This document shows positions 58,986 to 64,000 of a DNA stretch of 64,000 nucleotides, in pieces. Source of the stretch: Frigoribacterium sp. ACAM 257 (lineage in GTDB: Bacteria; Actinomycetota; Actinomycetes; Actinomycetales; Microbacteriaceae); NCBI RefSeq assembly GCF_007954365.1, contig NZ_VOLO01000003.1:434001-498000 (forward strand), in the 5' to 3' direction. Both the position numbers and the translations under genes were made by a program. The notes under the pieces were generated by a model. The model was not told where the DNA came from. It was given only the letters and a program-made list of their open reading frames with translations, and did no database searches. Within the stretch, counting starts at the first letter, position 1. Each line of letters starts with the position of its first letter.

Positions 58986-59891
58986 TCACAGGCTCGCGGT
59001 GAGCGCGTCGACGGCCTGGTCGACCGTGCGGTGACGGAACGCGAAGCCGTCCGCGAGCAGCGCCTCCGGCACGACCTGCTGGCTCGGCAGCAGCATCTCG
59101 CGGCCCGCCTCCTGCATGGCCGTGCTGATGACGACCTCGGGAACCGTGAGCGCGTAGGGGCGTCCGAGGTCCTTCGCGAGGCGGCGGGTGAGGGCGTCGC
59201 TGGTGGCGGGCGTGGGGCCGGCGAGGTTGACCGGGCCGCTGAGGCTCGACGTCAGCAGGTGCACGATCGCGGCGGCCTCGTCGTGCAGGCTGATCCAGGG
59301 CCAGAACTGGTCCCCGGTGCCGAGGCGCGAGCCCAGGCCGAGCTTGGTGAGGGGCAGCAGCGGAGCCATGGCGCCGCCGGGGCCCACGACCACGCCGGTG
59401 CGCAGGTGCACGACGCGGGTGGCGTCGGGCGTGGAGGCGGTCGCCGCCTCCCAGTCGGCGACGACGTCGCTGAGGAATCCGCTGCCTCGCGGGCTCTGCT
59501 CCGTCAGGCGCTCGCCCGGACGGTCGCCGTAGATGCCGACCGCGGAGCCGCTGAGGAACACGGCAGGCGGCTGCTCGGCGCCGGCCATGCCGTGCGCCAA
59601 CGTCGCGGTGGCCGTCACGCGGGAGTCACGGATCTCGCGCTTGTAGCCGGTGGTCCAGGGCAGGCGGCCGAGGGAGGCGCCGCTCAGGTTCACGACGGCG
59701 TCCGCCCGGTCGAGCAGGGTGCGGTCGATGATCCCCGCCGCCGGCACCCACGTCGCCTCGCCCTCGTCGCGGGCCTCGCGCCGGACGAGCGCGACGACCG
59801 TGTGGCCCGCGGCCACCAGCTGGCGTCGCAGCTCGGTGCCGACCAGGCCGGAGGCGCCGGAGACGAGGACGGTGAGGGAGTCGGCGGTCAT
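58986..59891 (-). CDS. TIGR01777-family sugar-nucleotide epimerase-like protein
   Basis: A 301-residue Rossmann-fold protein: VLVSGASGLVGTELRRQLVAAGH binds the dinucleotide, FLSGSAVGIYGDRP has the Tyr of the short-chain dehydrogenase/epimerase site, and residues after about 245 (LLPSQQVVPEALLADGFAFRHRTVDQAVDAL) are the DUF1731 tail that marks the family. The activity of TIGR01777 proteins is not settled; they are sometimes linked to cell division (SulA-named by mistake). Divergent from the host thyX. Confidence 0.85.
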   Translation of the reverse strand: MTADSLTVLVSGASGLVGTELRRQLVAAGHTVVALVRREARDEGEATWVPAAGIIDRTLLDRADAVVNLSGASLGRLPWTTGYKREIRDSRVTATATLAHGMAGAEQPPAVFLSGSAVGIYGDRPGERLTEQSPRGSGFLSDVVADWEAATASTPDATRVVHLRTGVVVGPGGAMAPLLPLTKLGLGSRLGTGDQFWPWISLHDEAAAIVHLLTSSLSGPVNLAGPTPATSDALTRRLAKDLGRPYALTVPEVVISTAMQEAGREMLLPSQQVVPEALLADGFAFRHRTVDQAVDALTASL

Positions 59892-59906
59892 GGGCCCTGG
59901 CTTTCT

Positions 59907-59942
59907 CGAGGAGGCGCGGCGCAGGGGAGCTGCGCCTCCTCG
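59907..59942. terminator. GGAGGCGC hairpin in tetR-like orientation
   Basis: CGAGGAGGCGC pairs with GCGCCTCCTCG (11 bp) around a 14-nt loop, between divergent genes. It shares its stem with the palindromes at 10238 and 35718. Because both neighbours begin here, it is not an obvious terminator and may be regulatory. Confidence 0.5.
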
Positions 59943-60042
59943 GGAGCGTAGCCGCGCCTCCTGCCGGTCGCCCGGGCGTCGGACGCTCCAGGGACCGGTG
60001 CCGGGCCGGGGCCGGACGGTCGTCGGAGGTAGAGTCGTCGCC

Positions 60043-60351
60043 GTGACTGATGCCGACGCCGTGACCCCCGCCTCCTCGTCTCCCGACACCGCTGCCGACC
60101 CCGTCGAGTTCCGCAGCGACGTCACGGTCGAGCTGGTCCGCTCGAGCGCACACGACTCCGACGTCCTCTTCGCGGCGCGGGTGTCGACCATGGGCGAGCT
60201 GACGCTCGAGGGCGCCCAGGCCTCGGCCGACGGGGCCCAGGCGACCAAGGGAGCTGGCCTCATCAACTACCTGATGCGCGACCTTCTGTCGACGCGAAGC
60301 AGGTATAACCCGGCTTTGGGTAAGAAAAGTCCAGTCCAACTGGCTCTTTAG
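60043..60351 (+). pseudogene. thyX: Host thyX, 5' fragment cut by insertion
   Basis: GTG at 60043 starts a frame of 102 residues. Residues 1-80 align with the ThyX N-terminus (VEFRSDVTVELVRSSAHDSDVLFAARVST, then GLINYLMRD) and match the element copy at 60436 position for position in the core. After codon 80 (GAC at 60280-60282) the sequence turns abruptly into AT-richer DNA and 22 unrelated residues before a stop. The expected RHGSPFEHNS continuation, the FAD/dUMP-binding RHR motif and everything after are missing, so this fragment cannot be active. The rest of the host gene should lie at the element's other end. Confidence 0.85.
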
Positions 60352-60372
60352 TCAGAACGCCGTCCGGCTAGC

Positions 60373-60386
60373 AAAAGTATACTTTT
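60373..60386. promoter_or_regulatory. AT-rich perfect palindrome with -10-like core before element thyX
   Basis: AAAAGTATACTTTT is a perfect 14-bp palindrome, out of place in this GC-rich genome. Its TATACT is a good -10 hexamer; no matching -35 is clear. TATAAC at 60304-60309 is a second candidate. It could be the thyX promoter, an operator or a recombinase-binding site near the element end. Confidence 0.45.
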
Positions 60387-60435
60387 CCCCAAGAGGCAGT
60401 CGTCGGCATCGGCGGCGCAGAACATGGAGCAAGCA

Positions 60436-61167
60436 ATGAGCGATACCCGGAGCCAAGTCAAATTCCGAAGCGATGTCGACGTGACACTCGTCAGGGCAGC
60501 AGCTCAGGACTCCGATGTTGTTTGGGCCGCGCGTGTCTCGACCGCAGGCGAAGACTCTATTGACGCAGTTGGTTCAGACGCCGCAGACTCCGCATTTTTG
60601 ATTAAATATTTGGCCCGCGAGCGGCACGGTTCACCGTTCGAGCACAACTCGATGACTTTCATGGTTACAGCCCCGATCTTCGTCTTCCGAGAATTCATGC
60701 GTCATCGCGTGGGCTTTTCGTACAACGAGGAAAGTGGCCGGTACCGAGAGCTAAAGTCCGTCTTCTACGTTCCCGGACCCGAGCGCAGGCTTGTCCAGGA
60801 GGGACGGCCTGGGCGCTACAACTTCGTCGAGGGGACTCAAGAGCAGTACGAGATCGTCGTGAAGCAAACGCGTCAAGCGGCCGAAGTTGCCTACAGGGCG
60901 TACCAAGAGATGCTCGAGGCGGGCGTTGCGCGAGAGGTAGCCCGCGGCGTCCTTCCGGTCGGCATCTACTCGACCATGTATGTCACCTGCAACGCTCGAT
61001 CGCTGATGTCGTTCCTTAGCCTTCGCACGAAGAATGAGAACTCCAAGTTCCCGTCCTACCCCCAGCGAGAGATCGAAATGGTGGCGGAACAGATGGAGGA
61101 GTACTTCGCAAAACTCATGCCCATCACGTACGAGGCTTTTCAGGCATCGGGGCGCGTCTCGCCCTGA
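60436..61167 (+). CDS. thyX: Flavin-dependent thymidylate synthase carried by the element
   Basis: A complete 243-residue ThyX. It makes dTMP from dUMP with methylenetetrahydrofolate and FAD/NADPH. RHGSPFEHNSMTF (63-75), the ThyX signature RHRVGFSYNEESGRY starting at R89, and the C-terminal SLRTKNENSKFPSYPQREIE region are all intact. ATG at 60436 is chosen because GGAG lies six bases upstream; ATG at 60424 would add four residues. The DNA is visibly AT-richer than the chromosome. It is of actinobacterial type yet clearly diverged from the host fragment. Its end overlaps the convergent tnpC-like gene by 28 bp. It should compensate for the broken host gene. Confidence 0.93.
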   Translation: MSDTRSQVKFRSDVDVTLVRAAAQDSDVVWAARVSTAGEDSIDAVGSDAADSAFLIKYLARERHGSPFEHNSMTFMVTAPIFVFREFMRHRVGFSYNEESGRYRELKSVFYVPGPERRLVQEGRPGRYNFVEGTQEQYEIVVKQTRQAAEVAYRAYQEMLEAGVAREVARGVLPVGIYSTMYVTCNARSLMSFLSLRTKNENSKFPSYPQREIEMVAEQMEEYFAKLMPITYEAFQASGRVSP

Positions 61168-61670
61168 TCACGTGTCTTCATTTTCGTGACGTTCGTCTGG
61201 GACGTTGTCGCTGGCCTTTTTCTTAGGATCCTGACCTGCTCCTCGAGGAAATCGTTTGTGAGGAGCAGATTGGCGTTCACCTGGATCGTATATTCCGCGC
61301 CACGCCGCCAATACTCGCTTGATTCTTGGGCTCGCTGCTTGATGCCGCGTTCCGTCTCGAGTTCGGCTTTGAGCCCTGCGATGATCTCCGCTTGGGCTCG
61401 TTCAACAACCGACTTTGGTCGCTTCGCTTCGCGGAAGAGTTCGCCGATGTCCTTAAGCCGACCTTGCTTAAAATGGTGCTCCTTGAGATCACATCCAGAC
61501 TCCTTGATGAGTGCCGTTAGTGTGAGCGTCCCAACAGCAACAACCTGAGGGGTGCCTGCAAGCATTCTGGCGATTGCCGCGACAAGGACGGCTCTTTCCG
61601 CGGCGTCCTTGGATGCGCGCCTCGACTTTGCGTCAGTTGGTTTTGGCACAATGTGCACCCTCCGTGGCAC
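61140..61670 (-). CDS. TnpC-like helical accessory protein of recombinase module
   Basis: A 176-residue, strongly basic protein. Residues about 45-75 (VVAVGTLTLTALIKESGCDLKEHHFKQ) could be a helix-turn-helix, and residues about 88-160 (VERAQAEIIAGLKAELETERGIKQRAQESSEYWRRG and on) form a coiled coil. This matches small proteins (TnpC of Tn554; DUF6262-type) encoded after the two tyrosine recombinases, where TnpC affects efficiency and orientation of transposition. GTG at 61670 overlaps the tnpB-like gene's end by 38 bp, so the two are coupled. The name rests on position and shape, not on close sequence match. Confidence 0.6.
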   Translation of the reverse strand: MPRRVHIVPKPTDAKSRRASKDAAERAVLVAAIARMLAGTPQVVAVGTLTLTALIKESGCDLKEHHFKQGRLKDIGELFREAKRPKSVVERAQAEIIAGLKAELETERGIKQRAQESSEYWRRGAEYTIQVNANLLLTNDFLEEQVRILRKRPATTSQTNVTKMKTRDQGETRPDA

Positions 61671-63882
61671 TCAGCGTCTTCCTATCCGCTTCGTGCTGCT
61701 CTATTCGGTGCTTGAGGTCACTGACCTTGTTCTGTTTTACGATGCGCATAGGAACTGGATCGAACGGCATCGACGCTTTCAGCGCCTTGATCTCTGCGCG
61801 CGCCTGCACGATCGTGGTGTCCGTGACGAGCCTGAGGCTGCAGTCCGAAACGCAATGGACAGGATCTGGGGAACTCCGAGATGTCTGACCAGAGCGGATA
61901 AGGCATGCAGACCGGGCGGGATCATCCAGGCACATGGAACTTTGTTTTGGATTGTCATGAACGGGGACGATGAGGGCGTCCTTCTTCATCCGTCGCTCTT
62001 GGTTAATTCCCACAGCGCTCATGCGGAATAGGAATTCGCTTGCTGCTGGCCCCGAGACCCCCATGCCGTTTGTCATTCCTTGGCGGAGTTCAGCGCCGGC
62101 GGCGAGCTTTGAGGTTCGGACCTCGTCGTCGATTTCGGCGGTTAAGCCGTATTTGCTCGAGGCGCCGTAAGCGGTGTGCATCTTCATGAGGTGGTCGTAC
62201 GTGAGGGCCCCTGTGATCACTCCGTCGGGAAAATGCACCAAGTGCCAGGCGAGCGTTTTTCTGAACCGAGACAACGTGATCGGCCCATTGCGGTCGTTCG
62301 GAATGCGGAGATGCTTCTTGCCGGCAGCGTCGCTGATTTCATTGCAGTGCTGGACGAAACGACGGATCCAGTCAGCAGCAACTTTTGCTGACACACCGGC
62401 TTCTTCTCCGAGGTTGAGGAGGCTATGGCCGCCGGGTCTCAGCGCCTGGAGAATGCGGATTGCCTGGGTTGCAGGACCAAAGACCGGCCATTCATGTTGG
62501 TGGCCCTGGAGGTCGCTCGCGCCATCTGGGGTTTGACGGTTTTTGGTGGTCGTGGCTCGGACGACATCGATCGGATGGCCGTCTTCGTCTGCGCTCACAC
62601 GCAATACATCGAAGGGGAGGCCGAGGACTTCATGGGGGCGCATGCCCGTGAAGTACGCCAACACGACCAGGCAGGCTGTAGTGAGGCTCTCGATGTGCCT
62701 GCTGATGTCGCAGAAGTCGATCCGTTCGATCCAAGGAACGCCGAGTAGCCGGCCTCGGACTTCAACGCCTACAGGTTGCGGCGCAGTCACGTCGAGGTCG
62801 AATCCTCGGGTGTGCCAGCCTTTCATCAGGTGTCCATTCCGGTGCCAGGGTCCCGCGCGGCCTACGGCTTGGGACATTTGTGTTGGTGAGCAACCTCCGC
62901 CAGCGGATGCCACGAGGTAGACACCCGCGAGGGATAAACCTCGATTTAGCTGCGTTGCGGGAAGTGAGAGGCTCGGGTCTCGCGCTCTAAGAATTTCCCG
63001 TGCTCTTTGGCTCCCCTTTTCGATGGGGGCGTCGAGGTTTCCTAGAAGCCTGGCTTTGGCGTCCTTAGCGGCGAGAACGTCGTTCGAGATCGAATCGATC
63101 CAAGCAATGCTCATCACGCACAGGGGACTCATGGTGGCGGCGCTGATGGGTGCAGTCGCTGTTTCTGGCACAGGGGAGTCGTGCGCTCTTTGGGGAGCAC
63201 GAGCCTTGGTGGGCGCCGTCGAGTCTTGAAGCCGGTTGTCTTCATCTAGCCAAGGGGGTTTTGGGAAAAAGTGAGCTGGGCCGCAGCGCAAGCTCACGAT
63301 GTGAAGCCGAACAAGAGATTTTCTAATGCTGCGTGCGCGGTCGATGGTCAATTCGCCACGTCTCGTTCGGGCCTCGATGTCCGTCGCGTAGGCCTTGAGG
63401 AGCGCAGAACTGCCATGGTTTTGAGCCCCAACCTGTTGTGGCTCCAAGTCGCCCAAGGTGTCCGCGACGCCGACGTCATCTAGCCACCATGAGAATCTCG
63501 ACCAGTCGCCAACCATCTGAACGACGGTCGTGGCGGCGAGCCATTTTCGTGGTTTCTGGCCGCTTGTGGGAGTGCCCGAATCGAGAAATGGCTCGTTCAT
63601 CAACGTCCATGCCGCCCGCTTGAAGCCCCTGCGAAACTGCACGGGAAACCCCTTTGCGCCTCGACTGCCGGAACTGAACCTCAACGCGTCGGGTTTGGTG
63701 GATGCGTTCGTTCCCAAGGCAGTGGTGGGCCAGCGGTCCGATGCGAATAGGGCAATGTCTTGAGCCCCGGCCCGATTGCGAGACGGAATAATAGAAGGGC
63801 CCCTTTCGACGAGCGTCCATCGGTGCTCCTCCCTTTCCTCGAGGCTGCCCGCTGTGGTCGGTACCAAATTGGCGGGTTTCAC
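61633..63882 (-). CDS. TnpB-like large tyrosine recombinase with Cys-rich tail
   Basis: A 749-residue tyrosine recombinase. The catalytic domain (about 395-580) shows R415 in YFTGMRPHEVLGL, K447 in TTTKNRQ, R541 in LSRFRKTLAWH and Y572 in MKMHTAYG as the best candidates. The HxxR box begins with S in place of H, seen in some large members. About 390 residues precede it, including a core-binding region. The tail has C651-x8-C660...C677-x3-C681, a likely zinc site. Length and place fit TnpB (630 residues in Tn554). Its GTG overlaps the upstream gene's TGA as GTGA (63879-63882). Confidence 0.8.
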   Translation of the reverse strand: MKPANLVPTTAGSLEEREEHRWTLVERGPSIIPSRNRAGAQDIALFASDRWPTTALGTNASTKPDALRFSSGSRGAKGFPVQFRRGFKRAAWTLMNEPFLDSGTPTSGQKPRKWLAATTVVQMVGDWSRFSWWLDDVGVADTLGDLEPQQVGAQNHGSSALLKAYATDIEARTRRGELTIDRARSIRKSLVRLHIVSLRCGPAHFFPKPPWLDEDNRLQDSTAPTKARAPQRAHDSPVPETATAPISAATMSPLCVMSIAWIDSISNDVLAAKDAKARLLGNLDAPIEKGSQRAREILRARDPSLSLPATQLNRGLSLAGVYLVASAGGGCSPTQMSQAVGRAGPWHRNGHLMKGWHTRGFDLDVTAPQPVGVEVRGRLLGVPWIERIDFCDISRHIESLTTACLVVLAYFTGMRPHEVLGLPFDVLRVSADEDGHPIDVVRATTTKNRQTPDGASDLQGHQHEWPVFGPATQAIRILQALRPGGHSLLNLGEEAGVSAKVAADWIRRFVQHCNEISDAAGKKHLRIPNDRNGPITLSRFRKTLAWHLVHFPDGVITGALTYDHLMKMHTAYGASSKYGLTAEIDDEVRTSKLAAGAELRQGMTNGMGVSGPAASEFLFRMSAVGINQERRMKKDALIVPVHDNPKQSSMCLDDPARSACLIRSGQTSRSSPDPVHCVSDCSLRLVTDTTIVQARAEIKALKASMPFDPVPMRIVKQNKVSDLKHRIEQHEADRKTLSATEGAHCAKTN

Positions 63883-64000
63883 GCGGCGATCTCGAATCCG
63901 TTGTGTCTGTTTGATTCGTCTAGCAGCATGCGAACGAAGTCGGCGTCGTCTTCCGTTGCGTCGTGGCGGAGTTGACCAAATTCTTCAGGGGAGACGTTGT
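63879..64000 (-). CDS. TnpA-like protein, C-terminal fragment at window edge
   Basis: Only the last 39 residues are in the window, ending FVRMLLDESNRHNGFEIAA and preceded by PEEFGQLRHDATEDDAD. They are too few to name a family. Position directly upstream of a tnpB-like gene, with a GTGA overlap, predicts a second tyrosine recombinase (TnpA, about 360 residues in Tn554). The rest lies beyond base 64000. Confidence 0.55.
   Translation of the reverse strand, partial: NVSPEEFGQLRHDATEDDADFVRMLLDESNRHNGFEIAA

Follow-up and report, generated by a model that had tools for sequence, protein, structure and literature searches.

An island inserted into thyX of Frigoribacterium sp. ACAM 257 carries a complete thyX of its own that probably makes the insertion tolerable

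The stretch of DNA analysed here (the window) is 64 kb long and corresponds to positions 434001-498000 of contig C8 in the genome of Frigoribacterium sp. ACAM 257 (G000). Close to its right-hand end the host gene for the thymidylate synthase ThyX breaks off and gives way to a foreign island, at the very tip of which lies a second, complete thyX, hereafter the cargo gene. The features at this boundary are the following.

60043..60283, + strand: 5′ fragment of the host thyX, 80 codons plus one base
60278..60283, + strand: 6-bp core GCGACC (crossover or footprint), recurring at the right junction on contig C13
60284..60309, + strand: left terminal inverted repeat, consisting of TTCTGTCGACG, 6 bases and AGGTATAAC
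60436..61167, + strand: cargo thyX, encoding a complete flavin adenine dinucleotide (FAD)-dependent thymidylate synthase of 243 amino acids (aa), in the same direction as the host thyX

Over its 241 bp the 5′ host fragment shares 95% identity with the intact thyX of the nearest relative (L009); the match stops at 60283, the guanine-plus-cytosine (GC) content falls from about 0.76 at 59750-60249 to 0.55 at 60250-60749, and the truncated host frame continues through foreign codons to a stop that ends at 60351. An earlier, sequence-only reading of this DNA had set the break in host ThyX where the base composition drops, which agrees with these data, and its breakpoint of 60,283 was about right, now refined to a core at 60,278-60,283 with the first foreign base at 60,284. 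The 3′ part of thyX and the dapA gene behind it, which the same reading had proposed to seek past position 64000, were both found on contig C13. There the 3′ fragment runs from 27357 on with zero stops, is 97% identical to the nearest relative's thyX over 553 bp and is followed by dapA in the expected orientation (TIGR00674, 274.3 bits against a cut-off of 206.15). A whole-genome PF02511 search yielded two ThyX matches, namely the cargo gene (model positions 2-190) and the C13 fragment (47-190). An uninterrupted thyX of the host lineage, another of the proposed checks, is present in 15 of 15 congeners.

The left junction reads ATGC-GCGACC-TTCTGTCGACG and the right junction CGTCGACAGAA-GCGACC-GGCACGG, the unoccupied site in relatives being ATGC-GCGACC (or GCGATC)-G(G/C/T)CACGG. 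The right island end repeats the identical 11 and 9 bases around a spacer of 7. The core of the host thyX is GCGACC in 13 of the 15 congeners and GCGATC in the other two, and GCGACC in 8 of the 10 family thyX loci read, this count covering only loci read on the + strand (10 of 29). Within its own genome, the pattern TTCTGTCGACG-N6/7-AGGTATAAC occurs at exactly C8:494284-494309 (+) and C13:27331-27357 (-); it has no occurrence in the 397 other genomes of the family, and its reversed control has no match in the own genome. Exact 11-mer inverted matches have a rate of 6e-7 over all place pairs in both island pieces. With the end pattern at exactly the two junctions, absent from the 397 other genomes and with an empty reversed control, chance is in practice excluded, and the insertion into the host thyX is confirmed as real. 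It occurred at precise ends, as had been claimed, with the same 6-bp core and inverted arms at both junctions. The target stretch itself is near-invariant, INYLMRDRHGSPFEH being exact in 15 of 15 congener and 27 of 29 family ThyX proteins.

No decay was seen in the two host halves: their frames are open, and their ratios of nonsynonymous to synonymous substitution rates (dN/dS) against the nearest relative, 0.038 for the 5′ half (58 codons) and 0.081 for the 3′ half (180 codons), fall within the range of intact gene pairs. Joining the halves through one 6-bp core would yield an open thyX frame. A search for other split thyX genes in eight family genomes with double or weak matches returned ten partial matches, all 80 bases or less from contig ends, so that assembly breaks explain them and an insertion could still coincide with such a break; one of these genomes (G375) has two complete thyX matches.

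The extent of the island was reconstructed across a gap in the assembly. Contig C8 ends within the first part of a xylose-isomerase gene (xylA), and C13 opens with the final codons of this gene, read in the same direction; TIGR02631 matches both the first xylA piece on C8 and the complete gene of a relative. A xylose isomerase of the xylA_Arthro type in one congener and the high GC content are in keeping with an actinobacterial host, by our reading a Microbacteriaceae-like one. Near-identical xylA pieces (318/327 and 133/135 bases alike) bound the host-like contigs C1 and C14, with which the native xylA locus of relatives is collinear (three of the three relatives fetched). Assigning the native gene to C1 and C14 gives the island a second xylA of its own, which accounts for the contig break and leaves C8-to-C13 as the join. 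With island pieces of 23,598 and 27,357 bp and about 0.7 kb of joining xylA missing, one island of about 51.7 kb appears to join C8 to C13 through xylA. The island xylA is about 97% identical to the xylA of the host and its congeners, and so genus-like a gene indicates that part of the cargo probably came from within the genus.

The cargo thyX begins about 150 bp inside the island, with GGAG six bases upstream of its ATG at 60436 and an alternative upstream ATG at 60424. Members of the ThyX family are recognized by the motif RHRx7-8S; the cargo protein keeps it as RHRx8S (RHRVGFSYNEES) and matches PF02511 (1.1e-48) and TIGR02170 (194.5 bits against a cut-off of 87.9) at 60,436-61,167, in line with the complete ThyX previously described within the foreign DNA. 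Its DNA identity to the host thyX, with the two halves rejoined, is 65.6%. In a phylogenetic tree with 86 rows, which included the first 40 of 80 retained viral loci (158 stretches had encoded a relative), cargo ThyX paired with a long-branched stray ThyX of genome G238 (98/90), and the pair stood beside 30 of the 40 viral-contig ThyX proteins (fork 99/98); the other 10 viral proteins fell nearer the host-gene side, and the 15 host genes formed a separate clade. Judged by these comparisons, the cargo thyX is a divergent, presumably transferred gene and not a duplicate of the host's. The stray gene of G238 lies among transporter-like genes with no recombinase module within 20 kb.

A search for thyA elsewhere in the genome, also suggested earlier, gave no PF00303 match (9 of 14 control genomes do match), and such profile searches found no intact thymidylate synthase in the genome apart from cargo ThyX. 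The claim that the island supplies a replacement for the gene it breaks is thus upheld, the cargo ThyX being complete and no thyA having been found. A 14-bp perfect palindrome, AAAAGTATACTTTT, at 60373-60386 directly upstream of the cargo gene could be an operator or part of a promoter; an Rfam scan of 59500-64000 gave no match. The congener G006 carries a second ThyX at another locus (L034), 60% like the cargo protein, with no such recombinases in 20 kb, close to a protein related to a metallophosphoesterase-like protein of the island. The idea that the cargo gene was recoded at the target to escape self-insertion was rejected as unproven. The gene departs from the target with GCGAGC as its core and with KYLARER where the left arm has NYLMRDR, and three of five cargo changes at pooled-conserved residues sit at residues 54-60, just upstream of the target, by a post hoc count; conserved-residue tests gave p = 0.36 against family and host proteins, 0.36 against the pooled set and 1.0 against the viral proteins.

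Behind the cargo thyX lies the recombinase module reported from the sequence alone. It consists of four genes on the opposite strand and extends beyond the window into the stretch L003.

61140..61670, - strand: small module gene, 176 aa, in the GinD/Srap/TnpC position, assigned by position and partial similarity
61633..63882, - strand: large tyrosine-recombinase-like gene, 749 aa, with catalytic-type residues
63879..64000, - strand: 3′ end of a degenerate recombinase-like gene, 562 aa, continuing outside the window as L003:379-2067
L003:2072-3595: 507-aa recombinase behind the 562-aa gene, keeping R242, K270, R412, H456 and Y466 in seven rows

Starting from the side that faces the interior of the island and reading toward its left end, the products are of 507, 562, 749 and 176 aa, an order kept in relatives, and the cargo thyX sits between the 176-aa gene and the left end. 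The recombinase boxes were assigned by our own reading. In the 507-aa protein Gln takes the place of the box-II His, and its family profile matches XerD and other recombinases in PDB (best 1.7e-07; one of seven hits looks unrelated by name). In the 562-aa protein Asn replaces the box-I Arg, as in seven of seven rows, and Y402 is invariant; at the LGH-type His position it has His, and its relatives Gln, Ser or similar. In the 749-aa protein the GMR Arg is present in five of six rows and K447, R541, H564 and Y572 are invariant in all six, its family profile giving a weak match to a phage-integrase chain in PDB (0.014). The 176-aa protein is 32% identical to the small gene product of L235 over 121 residues, shows no invariant column when aligned with five other small module genes, and has no Pfam, NCBIfam, PHROGs or PADLOC match at the limits used.

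Catalytic tyrosine-recombinase residues in two module proteins (507 and 749 aa), together with the 6-bp core on both sides and the exact 11-bp inverted arms, place the island, as far as sequence features go, in the broad kind that comprises strand-biased circularizing integrative elements (SEs), islands with three integrases (GInts) and Tn554, without filing it under any single one of them. Tn554 enters radC and, to our knowledge, carries no replacement for its target. Copy-out movement has been reported for SEs and is open for GInts, according to the accessible part of one survey (PMC10214605). The same part describes SEs with the module order found here, that is, an ordinary recombinase, a degenerate recombinase-fold protein, a large (in the island, catalytic) recombinase and a small protein, and with a 6-bp footprint and selected target sites; those SEs differ in having been detected, in that survey, in Gammaproteobacteria only and in carrying their module at the left end (PMC10214605), whereas the module of the island lies behind the cargo thyX. 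The comparison covers gene order and residues.

GInts share with the island a four-gene module, site-specific insertion of islands up to at least 76 kb, a 6-nt staggered exchange and mixed cargo (PMC5385486, in the portion available). They differ in that GInt genes 1 and 2 carry RHRY and gene 3 does not (PMC10214605), whereas in the island it is the second gene that is degenerate, having lost the box-I Arg, and the third that keeps the residues. Their gin operon lies at the 5′ end, with ginA outermost and the cargo after ginD (PMC5385486), whereas here the small gene is nearest the end, with thyX in between. Within the available portion of the GInt paper, thyX is not among the sites given, and its authors consider that insertion probably does not fully inactivate targets (PMC5385486). 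Tn554, which has only tnpABC, is without a counterpart of the degenerate gene in the account seen in part (PMC10214605), against four genes here; the earlier Tn554-type label thus fits as to the broad kind, and plain Tn554 is too narrow.

Relatives of the 749-aa protein were found in 25 of 393 class genomes, the own genome included, and in four other genomes of 398 in the family (28-30%); genome_contigs gave one 26-residue match, plasmids gave 191 records, all under 60%, and viral_contigs none. For the 27 non-own class matches, 20 places were followed, comprising 19 new stretches and one short contig already included. Flanking frames were read in 17 neighbourhoods plus L030, and six insertions could be named, the other targets remaining without a name. 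They lie in dprA twice (L231, L031; PF02481), a permease gene (L232; PF00528), two methyltransferase genes (L029, L030) and ligA (L233). The break sites fall in conserved stretches, AFGID in DprA, RWAIAYK in LigA and NPP in the methyltransferases, which we take to be known motifs. The ligA case is weaker. In genome G566 (L233, L252, L254) complementary model parts 303-651 and 7-304 lie on two contigs, one of them adjoining a related module, and a complete ligA is present elsewhere; with the N part 36 kb into a 151-kb contig, a single joining element would exceed about 129 kb, and the two halves may have no common element between them. At L231 (G637) a minimal element of about 6 kb, consisting of the four module genes only, splits dprA, and the 6-bp repeat CCTTCG is read at both of its ends.

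Genome G134 contains an 11,448-bp element in two identical copies, in the NPP-motif codons of the two methyltransferase genes. The cores are CCGCCC (left) and CCGCCA (right) at L029, and CCCCCG (left) and CCGCCC (right) at L030. The right core of L030 equals the left core of L029, which fits a 6-bp footprint rule as if L029 had been the donor and been retained. Such a rule, under which a new site receives on its right six bases taken from the left of the donor site, has been described for SEs and Tn554-related elements (PMC10214605). If it holds here, the right core GCGACC would have come from a donor site with a thyX core, which points to an earlier residence of the island in thyX; against this, the same right core would be expected if core pairing had to be exact. 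The named insertions suggest that relatives enter conserved-motif codons, a targeting rule that the break of thyX at LMRDRHGSPFEH fits. Whether this multi-recombinase branch homes on near-invariant motif codons, with one lineage having specialised on thyX by means of a rescue ThyX and spreading from thyX to thyX, we put forward tentatively, as a possibility somewhat short of even.

Taken together, we consider it very probable that a mobile island occupies the host's only thyX and that cargo ThyX makes tolerable an insertion that would otherwise stop growth. The module, with three tyrosine-recombinase-like proteins and a small helper, would make a circular form whose joint has the order arm-core-arm (11-6-11), like other tyrosine-recombinase sites, and this joint would recombine with the codons for LMRDRHGSPFEH in ThyX. 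Insertion would break the host gene, whose direction the island thyX shares; lying about 150 bp downstream of the break, the island gene could be transcribed from the promoter of the host thyX, from one of the element, or from both. The cargo copy would thereby open to the island a highly conserved target that the host needs and has only once.

Several results weigh against this reading. A scan of 59800-61400 for sigma-70-like promoters was empty. Long branches leave the position of cargo ThyX in the tree unsure, and the solved chain nearest to it is 4p5a, which we believe to be the UMP/dUMP methylase PolB, so that the substrate assigned to cargo ThyX is presumptive. Over the 28-bp target the cargo identity is 0.68 against a gene mean of 0.66, which amounts to no measurable recoding. 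A thymidine kinase is present in the genome, which makes dependence on ThyX conditional; loss of ThyX need not kill where thymidine is available. The middle of the xylA that bridges C8 and C13 is absent from the assembly. The 27 module neighbourhoods, which span 3.4-20 kb each, are all devoid of ThyX (they include element repeats, L029 with L030, and L240 to L242 share match lines), and a single instance of the thyX island was found; the proposed search for such a module beside a split thyX elsewhere gave none in these neighbourhoods, and the end pattern is absent from the 397 other family genomes.

That the thyX halves are not linked by a single element, the split being an artefact of assembly or a chromosome rearrangement, might be thought from their lying on two contigs and from a xylA that is present twice and broke the assembly. 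Yet the end repeats match in opposite orientation at exactly two junctions with the same core, the native xylA locus of three out of three relatives uses two other contigs, and both halves are open in frame against those of relatives, so that we regard this explanation as most improbable. The sequence-only reading had gone further than a tolerated insertion and proposed an addiction device, in which excision of the element or loss of the cargo copy is lethal. Apart from cargo ThyX no intact thymidylate synthase was indeed found, and an internal deletion of cargo thyX in a cell with the split host gene should block growth without thymidine; in this sense the cargo gene does guard itself against deletions inside the island. 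Lethal excision is not supported, however, and loss of the cargo copy need not be lethal. Since the host halves look intact and the same core lies at both ends, clean excision would rejoin an open thyX frame and reverse the present state, dependence hardening only if one half decays; with a thymidine kinase present, thymidine could substitute for a lost cargo copy; and copy-out movement, if it applies, would form no empty site and create no loss. The cargo gene explains why the insertion is tolerated and does not by itself punish excision, and an addiction device is unlikely.

Less likely still is that ThyX is ordinary phage- or plasmid-like cargo for the supply of thymidylate (dTMP) that ended up in thyX by coincidence, with no selected rescue. 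Such an origin would suit a gene that is common on phages (1,830 of 50,697 records), occurs on Streptomyces plasmids (8 of 250 matching plasmid records), is missing from the 27 neighbourhoods of relatives and groups near viral-contig ThyX; it leaves unaccounted for that cargo and target coincide among thousands of genes and that the cargo lies at the very end of the island in the direction of the lost gene, and no other thymidylate synthase was found, so that after insertion the cargo must rescue whatever its origin. A better claim, though still a minority one at perhaps one chance among several, belongs to later compensation, which is compatible with rescue by cargo ThyX: an element that enters various conserved-motif sites would have sat in thyX of a thymidine-fed or ThyX-duplicated cell and captured the extra ThyX afterwards. 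Relatives hit varied genes such as dprA and methyltransferase genes, which are presumably dispensable, and the congener G006 has two ThyX genes; the right core, however, equals the thyX core, so that the footprint rule implies an earlier stay at such a site, and ThyX lies inside the terminal repeat and so travels with the element.

Many integrating elements spare their host by using gene ends or by rebuilding the cut frame, and some, such as SXT in prfC and phage 21 and e14 in icd, repair the gene they enter. These supply the missing end of the same frame, whereas the island supplies a whole separate gene: the break falls in the most conserved stretch of a needed gene, for which an entire foreign replacement is provided. 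Cleave-and-Rescue gene drives, which are engineered, break a vital gene and carry a rescue copy. They differ in relying on an engineered nuclease, a recoded rescue and sexual populations, no recoding being shown in the island, which offers a natural parallel to them. A rescued insertion of this kind would illustrate how a vital gene can house an element while the host keeps growing. Replacement between ThyX and ThyA is a long-discussed question, and the island offers a route by which core enzymes may be swapped for transferred versions. It also turns the target choice of three-recombinase elements into a testable rule, conserved-motif codons; if specialisation on thyX is true, the lineage gains a near-universal, needed, single-copy landing site and amounts to a natural break-and-rescue element.

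A disrupt-and-replace outcome at thyX is not unprecedented, one being known from Clostridioides difficile ribotype 027 (RT027), where the insert is said to be only about 2 kb. That insertion carries thyA and disrupts thyX, as the available parts of two papers describe (PMC6700662; PMC4924792), and like the island it brings a replacement gene for thymidylate synthesis; the statement of the sequence-only reading that no such strategy had been described for thyX is contradicted by it (PMC6700662). The two cases differ in that C. difficile, of another phylum, received the unrelated enzyme ThyA, whereas here the replacement is a same-family ThyX at the tip of an island that measures about 52 kb and encodes recombinases of its own. 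Beyond the C. difficile case, no use of thyX as an integration site was found among the open-licence papers listed, where we likewise have not met a large recombinase-bearing island that combines a same-family ThyX at its very end with targeting of motif codons.

The remainder of the island carries mixed cargo. Defence-related matches, clustered at L003:4071-11572, are to an AbiEi-like protein, QatA, QatC and QatD (PADLOC) and a TIR-domain protein, the QatA match lying below its NCBIfam cut-off (321 against 600). A serine resolvase, glycoside hydrolases of families 2 and 3, transporters and regulators are also encoded. The island copy of the inosine-monophosphate dehydrogenase (IMPDH) gene (G000:C8:514237-515681; L068, L070) is broken by a change of frame, with matches to model positions 1-241 and 237-345 in different frames, and a full-length IMPDH match (1-345) is present on another contig.

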